The notes below the pieces were generated by a model. The model saw only the letters and a program-made list of their open reading frames with translations, was not told the DNA's origin and ran no database searches. Position numbers and translations under genes: made by a program. Positions 1 to 11,270 of a stretch of 64,000 nt of DNA are shown piece by piece; positions within the stretch are counted from its first letter, which is position 1; each line of letters begins with the position of its first letter. The stretch lies in contig NZ_CP076456.1 of assembly GCF_018866305.1 (NCBI RefSeq), positions 1,302,001-1,366,000 on the forward strand. The letters run 5' to 3'. Source of the stretch: Arthrobacter sunyaminii (GTDB taxonomy: Bacteria; Actinomycetota; Actinomycetes; Actinomycetales; Micrococcaceae).

Positions 1-920
1 AAGACACCGGCGAAGCACAGGATCTGCACGCGGCGCACCTGACAATTACCTTCGGGTTCGGCCGGACGCTGTTCGAGAAGGACGGCGAGGACCGTTACGG
101 AGTCCGCTCCCGCCTGCCCGCTGCGCTGATCGACCTTCCGCTCTTTTCCGGGGATGCCCTTGAGCCGAACCGGACCGGCGGGGACCTGATGGTCCAGGCC
201 TGCGCCGACGATCCCCAGGTGGCGGTGCATGCGGTGCGGAACCTCTCCCGGATTGCCTTCGGGCGGGCGCGGGTGCGGTGGTCGCAGCTCGGCTTTGGGC
301 GGACTGCCTCCACCTCGACGGGCCAGGTGACGCCGCGCAACCTGTTTGGTTTCAAGGACGGCACCGCCAACATCATGGCGCAGGATCGGGATCTGCTGGA
401 CAAACACGTGTGGGTGGGAGGCAGCCCGGCTGCTGAAGCATGGCTCGACGGCGGCACCTACGCGGTGATGCGCCGGATCCGAATGCACGTGGAGACCTGG
501 GACCGGACCACCCTGCGCGAGCAGGAACTGGTGGTGGGGCGCACCAAGCGAAAGGGTGCCCCGCTGTCCGGAGGGGACGAATTTACAGCACCGGATTTTT
601 CGCTTCCGGGCAGAAACGGGCCGCTGATCGACGCAGGGTCACACCTGGCGCTGGCCCATCCGGACCACAACGGCGGAGTGCACATGCTGCGCCGCGGTTA
701 CAACTATGCCGACGGCACGGATGACCTGGGCCGGTTCGACGCCGGACAGTTTTTCGTGGCCTATCTGGTGGATCCGCGCTCGCATTACGTCCCGATGCAG
801 TCGGCCATGGCCAAGAATGACCTCATGGCGGAATACCTGCGGCATACCGGCAGCGGGTTGTTTGCGGTCCCGCCGGGGATTCAGGCAGGGGAGTACATCG
901 GGCAGCCGTTGTTCAGCTGA
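1..920 (+). CDS. efeB: DyP-type peroxidase / EfeB-like deferrochelatase (5' partial)
   Basis: The reading frame is open from base 3 and ends at 920, giving the last 305 residues of a haem peroxidase. The DyP signature GFKDGTAN is present, with the distal Asp in it. Downstream, SHLALAHP supplies the likely proximal His region and MLRRGYNY the conserved Arg. EfeB-type DyPs are exported by Tat and act with EfeU/EfeO in iron uptake, or recover iron from haem. The N-terminus and any efeU/efeO genes lie outside the window, so the EfeB subtype rather than another DyP is inferred from the family and from the iron box of the converging operon. The stop codon lies inside a 22-bp tandem duplication. Confidence 0.85.
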   Translation, partial: DTGEAQDLHAAHLTITFGFGRTLFEKDGEDRYGVRSRLPAALIDLPLFSGDALEPNRTGGDLMVQACADDPQVAVHAVRNLSRIAFGRARVRWSQLGFGRTASTSTGQVTPRNLFGFKDGTANIMAQDRDLLDKHVWVGGSPAAEAWLDGGTYAVMRRIRMHVETWDRTTLREQELVVGRTKRKGAPLSGGDEFTAPDFSLPGRNGPLIDAGSHLALAHPDHNGGVHMLRRGYNYADGTDDLGRFDAGQFFVAYLVDPRSHYVPMQSAMAKNDLMAEYLRHTGSGLFAVPPGIQAGEYIGQPLFS

Positions 921-1070: not shown

Positions 1071-3038
1071 TTACGCCCTGCGCCTCTTCATGAGGAGCCA
1101 GGTTCCGGCGGCCAGGAGCAGAACTGCCGCTCCGCCGATCCAGGGCAGGCTCTTGCCCACGCCGGTTTCCGCCAGCGGAGCCTTCGAACCGGTGTCCGGC
1201 GTTGCCTCGGCTGCGGCTCCATCCGGCTCCTCCGTGCTCCCGTCAGAGTCTGAACCCGGTGTCCCCGTGTCAGCCGGTTCTTCTGCTGAACCCCCCGGGG
1301 CTGGAGTGCTGCCGGTGCCCGGTGACGGGGCCGCAGTAGGTTCAGCAGACGGTTCCGGAGCGGGAGCCGTAGGTTCAGCTGACGGTTCCGGCGTCGGTTC
1401 GTCGGTGGGCGCCGGTGCCGGATCTGTCGTCGGTTCAGGTGCCGGTGCTGCCGGGGCCGCCGAGAGGAGGTAGAGCGAAACCGCGTTCCCTCCGCCTGCC
1501 ACCACATCCGGGCTGCCGTCACTGTTGAAATCTCCGGCCACGCCGACAGACGTTCCGACGTCTGCTCCCAGCAGCTGTCCTGACTCAGCAGGCAGCCCGG
1601 CCAGGCCAAGGCGGCCTGAGCCGTTCGGCAGGCCGTTCACCGCCCAGAGTTCACCGTTTGCGGCCGAGCCCAGAAGCACCTCAGGTGTTCCGTCGCCGTT
1701 GAGGTCCGGGATGCCCGCCACGGAAGCGCCGGTCCGGCCTCCGTCGGCGGCTCCCTCAATCCAGTAGCCGCGTTCCTGCGTCTCGCCGTCGGTGCACGTG
1801 GCATCCGCCGAGCCTGAGCTGCAGCTGAAGACGGTGGCGGCGGAGGCTTCCGGAGCCGTCATGACAGGGGCAGACGACGCCGAGCCGAAGATCACGGCAG
1901 CTCCGCCGTTACGGGGCGCATCCGGCCGGGACACGCCGTCGGCTCCCACCGCAATGTCGGCGAACCCGTCATTGTTGATGTCGCCGACACCGGCAATGGA
2001 TGCGCCCAGCCGGTCCCGCTGGCGCTGCGGGCCATAGATCATAAAGCCGTCATCGGTCATCGCGGCGAGGTCCAGGCCACCGGTCCGGCCGCCCCACAGG
2101 GCGTAGGCGGCACCGGAGGATGAGACTTCCGCACCCCAGGGAGCAGCGGTGTAGGCGGACACCAGCAGGTCTGCGGCTCCGTCACCGTTCACGTCCCCCG
2201 CACCGCTGACCGTACCCAGGCGGTCCTGGGCGGCTGCACCGTCAATGGTGCGGATTACGCGGCCGGCATCCGTCTGGACGTTGACCGTGCGCACGGAGGT
2301 TTGTCCCTTGACGATCCAAACCCGACCGCTGTTGGTCCGGCCGTTGTAGTCGGCCAGAATGTCGCCAACCGCAATATCGTCCAGTCCGTCGCCGTCGACG
2401 TCGCCCACTGCTGCCACGGAGTAACCGAAGTTATCGGTGGAGTTGTCCGCTGCGGTTTTGTCAGCTGCGCCGGAATCCTCAATGACGAATCCCCGCGTGC
2501 CGAGGAAGTCCAGATCCACGGGGGAGAAGTCCCGCGCACCGAAGATCACGGTGGCCTGCTGGTAGCCGCGGCTGCCCGCCCCCAGGACAAAATCGTCAAT
2601 GCCGTCGCCGTTGGTGTCGCCCAGACAGGACACAGCCCAGCCAACCCATGCGCCGGCCGGAACGGTGACGGAGGGCCCGTCGATGCGGATGGTGCCTGAA
2701 GCGTCAGGATCAGCAACGTCGCCGCCTGACGGCGTTCCGGTGCCGAGAGCAACATAGGCGGCGCCGGTGTTGACGTAGCCGGGGCGGTCCCAGCCCCAGT
2801 CGCCCAGGATGGTGTCATCCATCCCGTCACCGTTGACGTCGCAGGAGGAGCTGCTCACGCTAAACCCCAGGGTGCCGTTGGCCTCGCCCTGCCAGACGCT
2901 CTTGCCCGCCAGCAGCGGATCCGTTTCTTCGGCGGCTGCGGCCAGCGGCCAGGCAACGGTCAGCGAACCAACGCCAACGGCCAGCGCTGCGGCGCCCGCC
3001 AGGAGGCGGCGCCGCGGTGATGAATTTTCATACAACAT
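1071..3038 (-). CDS. FG-GAP (integrin-like propeller) surface protein with LAETG sorting signal
   Basis: A 655-residue secreted protein. The N-terminus has SPRRRLLAG followed by a hydrophobic stretch, a possible Tat or long Sec signal. Seven FG-GAP/VCBS-like blades follow, each with a Ca-binding DxNxDGxxD loop (GDVNGDGAAD, GDINNDGFAD and others), predicting a beta-propeller. Then come a Pro/Glu/Ala/Thr-rich wall-spanning stalk, LAETG at about residues 622-626, a hydrophobic helix and KRRRA. LAxTG is the motif favoured by class E sortases of high-GC actinobacteria (established). The start at 3038 is chosen because it precedes the signal peptide and lies 22 bases after the stop of the upstream gene; an in-frame ATG at 3095 lies inside that gene. 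Ligand unknown. Confidence 0.85.
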   Translation of the reverse strand: MLYENSSPRRRLLAGAAALAVGVGSLTVAWPLAAAAEETDPLLAGKSVWQGEANGTLGFSVSSSSCDVNGDGMDDTILGDWGWDRPGYVNTGAAYVALGTGTPSGGDVADPDASGTIRIDGPSVTVPAGAWVGWAVSCLGDTNGDGIDDFVLGAGSRGYQQATVIFGARDFSPVDLDFLGTRGFVIEDSGAADKTAADNSTDNFGYSVAAVGDVDGDGLDDIAVGDILADYNGRTNSGRVWIVKGQTSVRTVNVQTDAGRVIRTIDGAAAQDRLGTVSGAGDVNGDGAADLLVSAYTAAPWGAEVSSSGAAYALWGGRTGGLDLAAMTDDGFMIYGPQRQRDRLGASIAGVGDINNDGFADIAVGADGVSRPDAPRNGGAAVIFGSASSAPVMTAPEASAATVFSCSSGSADATCTDGETQERGYWIEGAADGGRTGASVAGIPDLNGDGTPEVLLGSAANGELWAVNGLPNGSGRLGLAGLPAESGQLLGADVGTSVGVAGDFNSDGSPDVVAGGGNAVSLYLLSAAPAAPAPEPTTDPAPAPTDEPTPEPSAEPTAPAPEPSAEPTAAPSPGTGSTPAPGGSAEEPADTGTPGSDSDGSTEEPDGAAAEATPDTGSKAPLAETGVGKSLPWIGGAAVLLLAAGTWLLMKRRRA

Positions 3039-3060
3039 GTTAATTTGGCTCGTTCCGGGC

Positions 3061-4503
3061 TTAGTTGGGGGCGTGAACGCCGTTGTTCTTTCCAAAGTCG
3101 GCTGCAGTGTCGAACTTCTGCGTGCTCAGGGACACTGCACCTGTGGCGGTTCCTGCGACGAGGTGCTGCCGGATGCTGCCGGTGAACGCAGTTTCGGAGC
3201 CGCCCGTTCCGTAGGGGTCGGTGTACACGGCGGACGGGGTTCCGGGGGTGACTGAGTTCTGGTTCAGATAGAAGTCGCGCTGCGCGCCGTCGAACGGAGA
3301 GGCCGGATCCTGCCAGTCAAGCGGTGCCAGCGAATTCACGGTGCTCCAGGGGAACCCGGCGGCGGCGTTTTCTCCCCAGGCCAGGTCCACCGGGCGTGAG
3401 ATGCCGTTTTTGTTCTGCGCGGCGTCGCTGTTCGCCGGATCGTAGTAGCGGCTGGGGTTTCGCACGCCGAACCACGGGTCGAAATGCGCCAGCAGAGTGC
3501 CGTCAGCTGCTGTGATCCGGTTTTCGCCCTTCCACAGCTCATAGATTCCCCAAAGCGAGGCGGCCTCGCCGGTGGCATGCTCCGCAACGCACGCGGCATC
3601 GGGGATTTGCCGGGATCCGCCGTAGCCCGCCGGCAGCTTGCTGCCCATGGTGGCCACTGCTTCAAGTGCGCCGCAGTTCTTGTGGAATTCGTTGGAATTG
3701 CCGAACTTGCTCAGCGTCGTCGAAATGATTTCGGTGCCGTCAGAGCACTTGGACGCGTATATGGCTTCATGGGCATTGTTCGACGTGGCATCAGGGGACC
3801 AGCTGCCCTGATGCTGTTTGATGAGGAAATCGCAGGTGACAACCGCTCCCTGAGCGTCCAGTACCCATTCGCGGTTCTCGTCGATGAGTTCAACGTTGTT
3901 TTGCAGGAAGATTTTGTGGCCGGCATTGTCTTCGTGGCGCATGGCCATGCCTTCATGCTCGGCGCCGTACATCATCAGCGCCTCGCTGGCGTAGCCGAAC
4001 GGTATGCCGGTCTTCCCATCGGCCTCTGCCGGAGTCAGGTAATCCACCACCCAGTCGTAGATGTCCGAGGTGGCCGGGTCCGCGCCGTGCTCGTGCCCGA
4101 ACGTGCACATGCTGCCCGTGGTCGGATCAATGACCTGTGCCGGGTGCCAGGTCGGATAGATCTTTCCGTCCGGACCGAGCGCGGTGTACTCGGCGTGAAG
4201 TTCCGCCGAGCATGTGTCATAGGCGGTGGGCTTCCAGTTCCGCTCGAGATAGGCGGTGGAGTACTGCGGGTCGCCGCCGTGCTCGTGCCCCGGATCCGTT
4301 GGGGCGGTGGGCTCCGGCACGGTCATATCCGGCGTGGTGTGCTCTGGCGCGGTGTGGTCCATCGCCTCAGCCGGCGCGGCGGTGACGGAGAAGGCGGCCA
4401 GGCCTCCGGCCGCGAGTGCCGCTGCCGCGAGGGCGCCCGCCATTAGGCGCCATGTCCGCCTCCCGACGGCAGGGTCACGGTGGCTCTTTTGTTGGTTTTT
4501 CAA
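3061..4503 (-). CDS. Secreted protein of unknown function with GHEHG motifs
   Basis: I do not recognise the family. The 480-residue product has a Sec-type signal (charged N-region, hydrophobic residues about 21-43, predicted cleavage after AEA at 47). The mature part has six cysteines, which could form three disulfides, two GHEHG motifs and other histidines that could bind metal. The start is TTG at 4503 with AGG five bases upstream; the next ATG (4443) would cut off the charged N-region. It is the first gene of an operon with the FG-GAP protein (22-base gap) and lies 66 bases below an IdeR-type box, so iron-limited expression and an extracellular role in metal handling are plausible inferences. 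Confidence 0.75.
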   Translation of the reverse strand: MKNQQKSHRDPAVGRRTWRLMAGALAAAALAAGGLAAFSVTAAPAEAMDHTAPEHTTPDMTVPEPTAPTDPGHEHGGDPQYSTAYLERNWKPTAYDTCSAELHAEYTALGPDGKIYPTWHPAQVIDPTTGSMCTFGHEHGADPATSDIYDWVVDYLTPAEADGKTGIPFGYASEALMMYGAEHEGMAMRHEDNAGHKIFLQNNVELIDENREWVLDAQGAVVTCDFLIKQHQGSWSPDATSNNAHEAIYASKCSDGTEIISTTLSKFGNSNEFHKNCGALEAVATMGSKLPAGYGGSRQIPDAACVAEHATGEAASLWGIYELWKGENRITAADGTLLAHFDPWFGVRNPSRYYDPANSDAAQNKNGISRPVDLAWGENAAAGFPWSTVNSLAPLDWQDPASPFDGAQRDFYLNQNSVTPGTPSAVYTDPYGTGGSETAFTGSIRQHLVAGTATGAVSLSTQKFDTAADFGKNNGVHAPN

Positions 4504-4568
4504 GGCAACCTAATCCAGCCGGAACGTACCGTCCGGCTTCTTGTTCGGTGGAGTGGAAGTGTGCCGGC

Positions 4569-4587
4569 TTAGGTAAGGGAATCCTAA
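4569..4587 (-). promoter_or_regulatory. IdeR/DtxR-type iron box
   Basis: TTAGGTAAGGGAATCCTAA matches 15 of 19 positions of the DtxR/IdeR consensus. It lies at the centre of a 25-bp dyad (4566-4590) with perfect 8-bp arms GGCTTAGG/CCTAAGCC. It sits just downstream of the predicted -10 of the minus-strand operon, where a ferrous-iron repressor would block transcription. The + strand gene glyS starts about 300 bases away and is a less likely target. Confidence 0.75.
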
Positions 4588-4600
4588 GCCAGGCTCCTGA

Positions 4601-4630
4601 ATCGTATGAAGGTAGGGGGTTACGCAACAA
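4601..4630 (-). promoter_or_regulatory. Predicted promoter of the iron-box operon
   Basis: On the minus strand TTGTTG (-35, 4625-4630) and TACGAT (-10, 4601-4606) are separated by 18 bases. The predicted start falls within the iron box. The rest of the 4504-4883 gap shows no further gene; a glyS promoter must be there but I see no convincing match. Confidence 0.5.
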
Positions 4631-4883
4631 ATATGTGACCTAATTATTACCGGAGGCTAATTTATGGTTCCCGTCACGTTTCCGTGATCTGCCCCTCACA
4701 GCACACTGTGCCCACCGTGCCGCGTGCCGGGCTTTGGGTGCAGTGACCTTAAGCTGGTAGTTGTAGGTTTTTGCCCTTTGCAGTCCCTCGCCGCGCAACC
4801 TGCCGGTGCACACTGCGGACGGGACCATAAGCGGACCGCACCCAGCGGCCTGCGCAGACACGAAAGAACGGCGGTACCATTCC

Positions 4884-6272
4884 ATGGCTTCGACCAAATC
4901 CAAACTGGATCCGATCATCTCCCTCGCCAAGCGCCGGGGGTTCGTCTTCCAGTCGGGTGAGATTTACGGCGGGTCCCGCTCTGCATGGGATTACGGCCCC
5001 CTGGGTGTCGAACTCAAGGAAAACATCAAGAAGCAGTGGTGGCAGCACATGGTCCGCGGGCGCGACGACGTCGTCGGGCTGGATTCCGCCGTCATCCTCC
5101 CGCGCCAGGTCTGGGAGGCTTCCGGCCACGTTGAGGTCTTCTCCGATCCGCTGGTTGAATGCCTGAGCTGCCACAAGCGCTACCGCGCCGACCACCTCGA
5201 AGAGGCCTACGAGGAAAAGAAGGGCCACGCCCCCGAGAACGGCCTGGCGGACATTGCCTGCGCCAACTGCGGCACCAAGGGTCAGTGGACCGAGCCGCAG
5301 GAATTCTCCGGCCTGCTGAAGACCTTCCTTGGCCCGGTGGCCAATGAAGAAGGCATGCACTACCTGCGCCCCGAAACTGCCCAGGGCATCTTCGTGAACT
5401 TCAACAACGTGCTCACCACGTCGCGGAAGAAGCCGCCGTTCGGCATCGGCCAGATCGGCAAGAGCTTCCGCAACGAAATCACGCCGGGCAACTTCATCTT
5501 CCGCACCCGTGAATTCGAGCAGATGGAAATGGAGTTCTTCGTCGAGCCGGGCACGGACGAGGAATGGCACAAGTACTGGATCGAAAACCGGTTCAACTGG
5601 TACGTGAACCTGGGCATCGACCCGGAGAACCTGCGTCTGTTCGAACACCCGCTGGAAAAGCTGAGCCACTACTCCAAGGGCACCACTGACGTCGAATACC
5701 GCTTCGGCTTCCAGGGTTCCGAGTGGGGCGAGCTGGAAGGCATTGCCAACCGCACCGACTTCGACCTCGGCACACACTCCAAGCACTCCGGCACGGACCT
5801 GAGCTACTTCAACCAGGCCACCAACGAGCGCTTCACCCCGTACGTGATTGAGCCCGCCGCCGGCTTGACCCGTTCCTTCATGGCGTTCCTGGTGGACTCC
5901 TACACCGAGGACGAAGCCCCCAACGCCAAGGGCGGCGTCGACAAGCGCACCGTCCTGAAGCTTGACCCGCGCCTGGCGCCGGTCAAGGCAGCCGTGCTGC
6001 CGCTGAGCCGCAACGAGGACCTCTCTCCCAAGGCCAAGGACCTCGCTGCGCAGCTGCGCCGGAACTGGAACATCGACTTCGACGACGCCGGGGCCATTGG
6101 CCGCCGCTACCGCCGCCAGGACGAAATCGGCACCCCGTTCTGCATCACCGTGGACTTCGACACCCTCGAAGACCAGGCCGTCACCGTGCGCGAACGCGAC
6201 TCGATGGCCCAGGAACGCGTAAGCCTGGACAAGGTTGAGGGTTACCTCGCGCAGAGGCTGATCGGAGCGTAA
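4884..6272 (+). CDS. glyS: Glycine--tRNA ligase (dimeric, class II)
   Basis: A 462-residue class II aminoacyl-tRNA synthetase that charges tRNA-Gly. It opens with the family sequence [13 protein letters not shown], followed by a Cys pair (CLSC) and a second one (CANC) that form a likely zinc ribbon. Motif 2 is in [26 protein letters not shown] and the C-terminus is the anticodon-binding domain ([20 protein letters not shown]). Length fits the alpha2 type used by actinobacteria rather than the alpha2beta2 type. The ATG at 4884 gives the conserved N-terminus; an in-frame ATG at 4806 adds 26 unrelated residues. Its TAA overlaps the ATG of the next gene by one base. Confidence 0.95.
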
Positions 6273-8204: not shown

Positions 8205-9569
8205 ATGGGACACAGCCATTCCCCGCACTCCGATGAGCCGCCGTCCCCGGCAGCACTGGCCGCCCGGCGCCGCGCCAACCTCCTGCTGACCTGGATCCTG
8301 GTTCCGCTGGGGCTGCTGGCCGTTATCGGCATGGTCCTGCTCTGGCCTTCCGGGGACCGCACCGGCATCACAGTGTCCGATCCCTACGCCACCGCAGACG
8401 GCGTCACCTTCGAAACCGGCAAGGTCCAGCGCGTCAGCGAGGAGAACTGTCCGTCGTCGCAGGCCCTGGTTAATGCCGGCGGAACAGCCCAGCAGTGCCT
8501 GGTGGCGTACACGGTTCCGAACTCCGGGGGCTCCACCATCCAGGTGGAAGTTCCCCCGGAGGTCGCCAAGGGAGGCGCCATCGAAGCCGGCGACACCATC
8601 CGCTACCTGAATCTTGAAGCCATCATGGCGCAGGGCGGCGGCGCACCGCCCTACGTTTTCGTGGACTTTGTCCGTTCCATTCCCATGGCCGCGCTGACAG
8701 TGCTTTACGCGGGGGTGGTGATCGCCGTCGCTCGCTGGCGGGGGCTGCGTGCCCTGGTTGGGCTCGCCGGCGCCTACGCGGTGCTCGCCGGATTCATCCT
8801 GCCCGGGCTGGTGGAGGGCAAGCCGCCGCTGCTGCTGGGGCTGATCGGTTCAAGCGTGATCATGTTCGGTGTCCTGTACTTTGCGCACGGCTTTACGGCG
8901 CGGACGTCGACTGCGCTCCTGGGGACGTTGTTCGGACTGTCGATCACGGCCTGCCTGGCGGCCTGGGCGACCGATGCGGCACACCTGGTGGGGGTCGATG
9001 ACGAGAACGCGTACACGCTCATCAACTCCTCGGACAACATCTCCGTGTCCGGCATCATCCTGTGCGGGCTGATCATTTCCGGTCTCGGTGTGCTGAACGA
9101 CGTCACCATCACGCAGTCCTCTGCCGTGTGGGAGATGTACGAGCTGGCGCCCGGGGCGAGCGCCAAGCGGCTCTTCTCCGGGGCCATGCGGGTGGGCCGG
9201 GACCACATTGCGTCCACCGTCTACACCATTGCCTTCGCCTATGCAGGAGCGGCGCTTCCGGTGCTGATCCTTGTCTCGCTTTACGACCGGCCCTTCTTGG
9301 ACAGCATCACCAGCGGTGAACTGGCCGAGGAAGTAATCCGGACGCTGGTCGGCTCCGTAGGGCTGGTGGTTGCGATCCCGGTAACCACAGCCATCGCCGT
9401 TCTGGTGGTCAAGGCGGTGGGGATCAAGGGGATTCCGCACGGTACGGACGCAACGCACGACGACGGCGGGACGCTTCCGGCGCACGCAACGCCCGACGCC
9501 GGCGGGACGCCTTCCAGTCCCGCCGACGATGCACCGCCAACGCGGCGCTCGCTGCGCAACCGGTCCTGA
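8205..9569 (+). CDS. YibE/F-family multi-pass membrane protein
   Basis: 454 residues. An N-terminal cytoplasmic stretch (His/Ser/Pro-rich), one TM helix (about 28-50) and an extracytoplasmic domain of about 110 residues are followed by seven or eight TM helices ending near residue 415. Features match the YibE/F family (VFVDFVRSIPMAAL, SGLGVLNDVTITQSSAVWE), seen in Firmicutes and actinobacteria. Its transport substrate is not established. RBS GAAGGA lies 7 bases before the ATG at 8205; an in-frame GTG at 8181 has no RBS. Converges on the AtoE gene with only 15 bases between stops. Confidence 0.85.
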   Translation: MGHSHSPHSDEPPSPAALAARRRANLLLTWILVPLGLLAVIGMVLLWPSGDRTGITVSDPYATADGVTFETGKVQRVSEENCPSSQALVNAGGTAQQCLVAYTVPNSGGSTIQVEVPPEVAKGGAIEAGDTIRYLNLEAIMAQGGGAPPYVFVDFVRSIPMAALTVLYAGVVIAVARWRGLRALVGLAGAYAVLAGFILPGLVEGKPPLLLGLIGSSVIMFGVLYFAHGFTARTSTALLGTLFGLSITACLAAWATDAAHLVGVDDENAYTLINSSDNISVSGIILCGLIISGLGVLNDVTITQSSAVWEMYELAPGASAKRLFSGAMRVGRDHIASTVYTIAFAYAGAALPVLILVSLYDRPFLDSITSGELAEEVIRTLVGSVGLVVAIPVTTAIAVLVVKAVGIKGIPHGTDATHDDGGTLPAHATPDAGGTPSSPADDAPPTRRSLRNRS

Positions 9570-11039: not shown

Positions 11040-11270
11040 GACAGAGACCTCATTCTGGTTGCGGCAGTGAAACCGAAGGGGTACGGATGGATGGCCTGCC
11101 CAGTACTGAAAAACCATCATTGTGATGCAGGCCACCTGCACGCTAGGGGGTGCTCCCCGGGCCTGTCAATCGGCGTCGGGGGCCGGTCTGCAGCGGTGTC
11201 CGCACGACACGCTGCCGGAGGTTCCCCACAACCCGCAGCAGGATTTGCACCGGCTTGCGAGAATGGGGGT

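Follow-up and report, generated by a model that had tools for sequence, protein, structure and literature searches.

Which surface function would be governed by an iron box that precedes two genes, one of them belonging to no recognized protein family? The question is posed by the window, meaning the whole 64-kb stretch of DNA that was analyzed (G000:C1:1302001-1366000 of a 3.9-Mb genome; relatives carry handles of the same type). A comparison at the level of sequence supports a predicted iron box in front of a surface-protein operon whose function is unassigned. Herein, the elements are arranged as follows (window coordinates unless a contig is given):

1..920 (+), 3' part of efeB (DyP peroxidase); the whole gene is above the cut-off of TIGR01412
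1011..1049 (no strand), terminator-like hairpin with an 18-bp stem where efeB and the FG-GAP gene converge
1071..3038 (-), FG-GAP beta-propeller protein (PF01839, PF13517) with a LAETG sortase-type tail
3061..4503 (-), 480-aa exported protein with a TTG start; its C-terminal domain of ~400 aa (residues 82-480) ends in VHAPN
4569..4587 (no strand), putative IdeR/DtxR-type box, 19-bp core TTAGGTAAGGGAATCCTAA
4601..4630 (-), putative promoter read from the sequence: -35 TTGTTG at 4630-4625, -10 TACGAT at 4606-4601, 18-nt spacer
4806..6272 (+), glyS-like gene, flanking the box opposite the 480-aa gene, its ATG ~300 bp away
G000:C1:1299601-1300449, efeU, outside the window and upstream of efeB, above the NCBIfam EfeU cut-off
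G000:C1:1300482-1301636, efeO, outside the window and upstream of efeB, above the NCBIfam EfeO cut-off

Boxes were scored by their identity to the IdeR/DtxR consensus TTAGGTTAGSCTAACCTAA, as given in an excerpt of PMC8464063. The core at 4569-4587 agrees with it at 15 of 19 positions and is the top-scoring 19-mer of the window; the best scores in 60 dinucleotide shuffles of the window were 12-14, and 15 was reached in none of them. The core is embedded in a 25-bp palindrome (4566-4590) with the outer arms GGCTTAGG and CCTAAGCC, which are perfect over 8 bp. The box is thus a palindrome near the consensus and above chance, and the 15/19 match and perfect 8-bp arms given in the first-pass annotation are confirmed. 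A chance origin was rejected on account of these shuffles together with the recurrence of the site in relatives (see below). The box is, in addition, the sole exact TTAGG-N9-CCTAA of the window. With up to 2 mismatches, this motif occurs 7 times in the window compared with 6.15 expected—meaning no enrichment—and the full consensus at ≤3 mismatches has no match in the window because the box itself differs from it at four positions.

The gene 4806-6272, which we take from its sequence to encode a glycyl-tRNA synthetase, was weighed as the target of the box and is disfavored: the start of the 480-aa gene is only ~66 bp away, as opposed to ~300 bp for the ATG of glyS, and similar sites also precede FG-GAP genes in other neighborhoods. 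The operon had initially been described as facing the efeB gene. efeB is indeed a neighbor, but the FG-GAP gene converges with it tail to tail, and the box is not located beside efeB but between the 480-aa gene and the glyS-like gene.

The box lies just downstream of the putative promoter, over or just past the expected transcript start. This promoter, part of the earlier reading, is weak: a sigma-70 consensus scan found no site for the operon promoter at TTGTTG-N18-TACGAT, and the argument in its favor is its likeness in three relatives, G001, G009, and G010, which retain the stretch TTGTTGCGTAA. Within the same region, TTGCGTAA at 4621-4630 also appears in the leader of efeU (L012 ~9534-9541), with offsets of -122 to -127 from the 480-aa gene and -65 to -67 from efeU in G000, G001, and G010; it is possibly a second element common to both operons. 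Directly 5' of the TTG start of the 480-aa gene, GGATTAGGT (4508-4516) is retained as GGATYAGGT in G001 and G010. This element may serve in ribosome binding and is at the same time similar to half an IdeR site.

A regulator to match the box is encoded in the own genome. Two genes with a DtxR-family domain were found, one of which (L039:1309-2007) is a DtxR by NCBIfam, with 300.3 bits against the cut-off of 290 of NF053665; the best model for the other is MntR, below cut-off. A pattern fitted to the box at 4569-4587 matched four places in the genome with ≤3 mismatches. The box itself shows 0 mismatches because the pattern was fitted to it, and the remaining three sites (2 mismatches each) all lie ahead of iron-transport or ABC-transport genes. 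At the first site, the next gene encodes a Peripla_BP_2 protein, with a divergent gene for a 2OG-Fe(II) oxygenase. At the second it encodes an ABC ATPase, and a gene for a binding protein comes after it (this gene and the divergent gene were assigned by eye). At the third it encodes a FecCD permease. There is no enrichment of the pattern as such, since its reversed form gave 7 matches in the genome compared with 6 for the pattern at ≤3 mismatches.

The efeUOB operon that adjoins the window genes is complete—FTR1 permease, EfeO of the M75 type, and DyP-type EfeB all pass the NCBIfam equivalog cut-offs—and efeU is preceded by a 15/19 box of its own (L012:9493).

The identity of the FG-GAP propeller was confirmed by six stretches matching PF01839 (99.9 bits, E 5.8e-29) and by PF13517. 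Its gene more likely starts at ATG 3038 than at TTG 3095 (open frame 1071-3095), judging from the sequence, and with this start the gap to the 480-aa gene is ~22 bp. The C terminus shows LAETG, a hydrophobic stretch, and RRR (RRRA), and TIGR01167, the LPXTG anchor, recognizes it with 17.3 bits (cut-off 15.9), as anticipated for a sortase substrate. Three LAxTG models stay under their cut-offs for this protein, among them NF041528 (25.6 <30) and NF058582 (23.6 <27). The 480-aa protein is rich in His and contains six Cys and an N terminus that, by eye, resembles a signal peptide.

By its sequence, the 480-aa protein belongs to a new family for which no Pfam, NCBIfam, or PDB relative was found, and the description of it as unrecognized is thus borne out. 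No Pfam or NCBIfam family was above cut-off for the protein or the other members, nothing of use came from PHROGs and the PDB with either the protein or its profile as query, profile A3 had no match in the PDB, and the plasmid collection gave no match. Three PDB hits were dismissed as chance: 6f0t, the designed propeller Pizza6 (E 4e-4), in which no single stretch passed alone; 9uh3 (E 0.19); and 6nnj (profile A2, E 1.2).

Matches to the 480-aa protein or its profile were obtained in 4/29 genomes of the own genus including the own genome, 6/395 of the own family (one judged low-complexity), 2/394 of the own class, 2/196 of the order of G539, 6/199 of the class of G1082, 7/121 of the family of G1459, and 1/4 of the genus of G090, as well as in three named contigs including Nakamurella silvestris DSM 102309. 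The phylum search gave 14/396 genomes at E ≤1, from which the own genome, G1082, and G835 were accepted and eleven weak ones (E 0.05 to 0.63) were left out. Also dropped were G219 (E 2.8e-5) and short N-terminal matches in G009 and G010, all taken as low-complexity, and G1381, which had two partial matches. The set consists of 20 domains of full length, each with VHAPN at its end, and is drawn from 19 genomes (G1501 contributes two), with G009/G010 and G1593/G1604 as near copies; the latter two came from the propeller search. It was filtered for FGHEHG and the C-terminal VHAPN, whose invariance among the 20 is therefore by construction. G1082 and G835 possess FGHEHG, lack VHAPN, and were kept apart as two distant rows. 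In G835 (L037:8523-10865), FG-GAP-like GDWDGDGIDT repeats are seen by eye in the same polypeptide, so that this protein is possibly a natural fusion of both partners.

Each relative was scored by its highest-matching 19-mer in the 250 bp ahead of the unit's first gene:

16/19: G1593, G1604
15/19: G000, G001, G539, G1501a
14/19: G009, G010, Nakamurella, G1296 (before efeU), G1509, G1501b
13/19: G1459, G1486
Below 13/19: G1419 (12), G1531 (11), G1522 (10), G090 (10 before efeU, 11 before the family gene), G1365 (9), G1380 (9)

A site of at least 13/19 hence precedes 14 of the 20 loci, including four loci of another class, and shuffles of these 14 stretches reached the observed score in at most 2/300 or 4/1000 cases. 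The first-pass annotation had named the lack of a box before orthologous operons as an argument against its proposal; the box does recur before them, though six of the 20 are without one. The comparison loci without an FG-GAP partner score 9 (G1365, G1082, G1380) and 10 (G835). All scores depend on the chosen start. For G1501b this is position 11195, which precedes the first ATG of the open frame by 51 bp, and for G1380 it is the open-frame start; the one taken for G1522 may truncate a site. In G001, G009, and G010, the box is positioned at -83 to -88 relative to the start with a diverged core; within the genus, the arms of the box are largely kept while core and surroundings differ.

An FG-GAP gene lies adjacent on the same strand in 17/20 loci (15/18 without G1593 and G1604), and all nine partner proteins that were run against Pfam, from 8 loci, match FG-GAP. 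The stop and start of the pair overlap by 4 bp in G539 and G1593. The family gene leads in the own genus as well as in G090 and G1296, and the propeller gene leads elsewhere. A reverse search with the propeller alone (E 1e-30 or better) retrieved 7/247 genomes, each with the family gene adjacent. The question raised initially, namely whether homologues always co-occur with an FG-GAP/LAxTG gene, can thus be answered with mostly but not always. Both partner and box are missing in G1365 and G1380, which implies that the domain can work without either. The second family copy of G1501 (L065:9303-11144) likewise has no propeller match, shows a 14/19 site upstream, and contains a GAGDDRLRARGGDD stretch resembling RTX repeats. 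In G1296 (L054:3332-8972), the run with efeUOB continues past the family gene into two different FG-GAP genes.

The suggested cell-wall location fits the own lineage, and it does not extend to the family at large. Among 12 inspected partner tails, a clear LAxTG or LPxTG motif was found in three (G000 LAETG, G010 LAATG, G1593 LPRTG); G001 shows no clear motif, and none was seen in G090, G539, G1296 (both proteins), G1459, G1419, G1509, and Nakamurella.

Genes for EfeUOB or FTR1 proteins are linked to 9/20 loci. efeUOB adjoins in six of these, with convergent orientation in G000, G001, G009, and G010 and as a same-strand run in the order efeU-efeO-efeB-family-FG-GAP in G090 and G1296. In G1459, G1509, and G1501a, a lipoprotein-like protein and a protein with an FTR1 domain follow, and EfeB has no match in these three loci. 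No efe or FTR1 match was found in the other 11 loci within ~10 kb to each side (for G1531, 8.7 kb altogether). On the best tree, the linkage label requires three changes, of which the well-supported branches force only one. One of the linked neighborhoods (L049:5565-9298) comprises a 394-aa lipoprotein-like protein without a Pfam match beside an 846-aa protein with a C-terminal FTR1 domain. A 15/19 site (L049:9280-9298) is located here between the lipoprotein-like gene and the family gene; it overlaps the chosen start of the lipoprotein open frame, so that the upstream score is only 9/19. Taken from these sequences, regulation by the predicted box and the linkage to efeUOB/FTR1 appear well supported.

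FG-GAP propellers, like Big_3_5 Ig domains, typically occur in proteins of the cell surface and of adhesion. With Pfam matches to both in the partners, the sortase tail in the own genome, and the 11 loci without a nearby efe/FTR1 match, the pair might be an adhesin of iron starvation: an attachment or structural complex made at low iron that handles no iron itself. We regard this as unlikely, given the nine linked loci, two of them same-strand efeUOB runs, whose label changes three times on the best tree though well-supported branches force a single change, and given that six His are kept in all 22 rows of the alignment.

These His belong to a conserved core. Over the 20 rows, 66/406 positions are invariant, including 7/15 His and 6/6 Cys, and the 11-row alignment A3 gives the same invariants. 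Invariant in 22/22 rows are H22, H39, H56, H58, H150, H164, E57, E110, E241, C17, and C52, with the limitation that the invariance of H56, E57, and H58 is partly due to the FGHEHG filter. Because six His are invariant, binding of a metal, and of iron in particular, is suggested; the invariant His/Glu residues are a natural guess for a metal site, and the His may instead be catalytic or structural. C143 and C172 are lost together in G1082 and G835, as are C196 and C224 in G835. Such paired losses are what disulfide partners would show, and disulfides are thus presumed.

The catalytic role corresponds to an iron-repressed secreted metalloenzyme, whose His/Glu site would cut or oxidize an organic iron ligand, a polymer, or a haem source outside the cell to free iron while the propeller holds the substrate or tethers the enzyme. 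The further polar residues invariant in the 20 rows (R108, E110, K116, Y240, E241, W243) look enzyme-like, several partners contain Ig-like domains, some relatives have N-terminal parts that appear repeat-like by eye, and the distant members in L036 and L037 are without a partner or efe match. Pfam, NCBIfam, and PDB searches, on the other hand, revealed no known enzyme family or catalytic signature, and no shared substrate gene was noticed in an unsystematic look at the loci. A metalloenzyme is hence a possibility of clearly minor weight.

The His could also be axial ligands of haem, which the pair would capture for EfeB to yield its iron—a reading that overlaps with capture of iron for EfeU. 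In favor of this, excerpts of PMC9174327 and PMC3577903 report that EfeB extracts the iron of haem with the ring left intact and that FepA/FepB drive haem iron use in S. aureus, respectively. Neither protein nor the scanned members of the 480-aa family, however, contain a NEAT, HtaA, or other haem-binding Pfam domain, and the three FTR1-linked loci G1459, G1509, and G1501a have no match to EfeB. Haem capture as such is accordingly rated as quite improbable.

The reading we favor, at roughly even credence, is an iron-repressed two-gene surface cassette that binds iron and serves FTR1-type uptake (EfeU/FTR1). With iron in good supply, iron-loaded DtxR would sit on 4569-4587 at the transcript start and block the operon; under iron scarcity, both this operon and the neighboring efeUOB with its own box would be expressed together. 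The 480-aa protein would be exported, braced by disulfides, and hold a metal, most likely iron, on the invariant His/Glu cluster. The propeller—tethered by sortase in the own genome—would display or dock it at the wall, and the pair would collect iron outside the membrane and hand it to EfeO, EfeB, and EfeU. Weighing against this reading are the 11 loci with no efe/FTR1 match nearby, the six that lack a 13/19 site, the single forced change on the tree, the unenriched pattern, and the presence of the gene in only 4/29 genomes of the genus. A further-reaching proposal is held only tentatively: that the VHAPN protein and its propeller represent a new class of extracellular iron receptors for the FTR1-type permeases of single-membrane actinomycetes, with a metal site in an unseen fold, carried across no fewer than two classes of the phylum and more than once joined to efeUOB/FTR1 operons.

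To our knowledge, little is understood of the route that iron takes from outside a Gram-positive cell to the FTR1/EfeU permease. Should the pair act at the surface as a receptor or holder of iron for this permease, outer parts are added to a widespread system, and a family for which no Pfam, NCBIfam, or PDB relative was found gains a testable function with the six invariant His as targets for mutation. The pair recurs in distantly related bacteria, frequently accompanied by such a site or by genes for iron import, and might therefore be a hitherto undescribed outer component of iron uptake; no description of it was found in searches of an open-access library.

Compared with known systems, the operon shares with the DtxR/IdeR regulon the 19-bp box with TTAGG/CCTAA arms, a DtxR equivalog, and boxes before transport genes. 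Its content differs, and no match for this content was found in open-access texts. With LAxTG-anchored FG-GAP surface proteins, the window protein has the FG-GAP repeats, LAETG, hydrophobic stretch, and basic tail in common, whereas most of the inspected partners in relatives are without such a tail. Wall-anchored capture of haem and iron is carried out by Isd NEAT and HtaA proteins. The pair would act alike—being iron-repressed, exported, and wall-anchored—yet it is not a member of these families, and Pfam finds no cupredoxin or multicopper oxidase domain in either protein or the family members at the sequence level. The own efeUOB is of the standard type, and the two operon proteins match no EfeU, EfeO/M (M75), or EfeB model. 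FTR1-type permeases are encoded with extracytoplasmic partners in EfeUOB or EfeUOB-M, FetMP, and P19-cFtr1, according to an excerpt of PMC9174327. The pair described here would work like these partners of an FTR1-type permease, with the difference that a propeller is the companion and that the genes often lie away from the permease (11/20).
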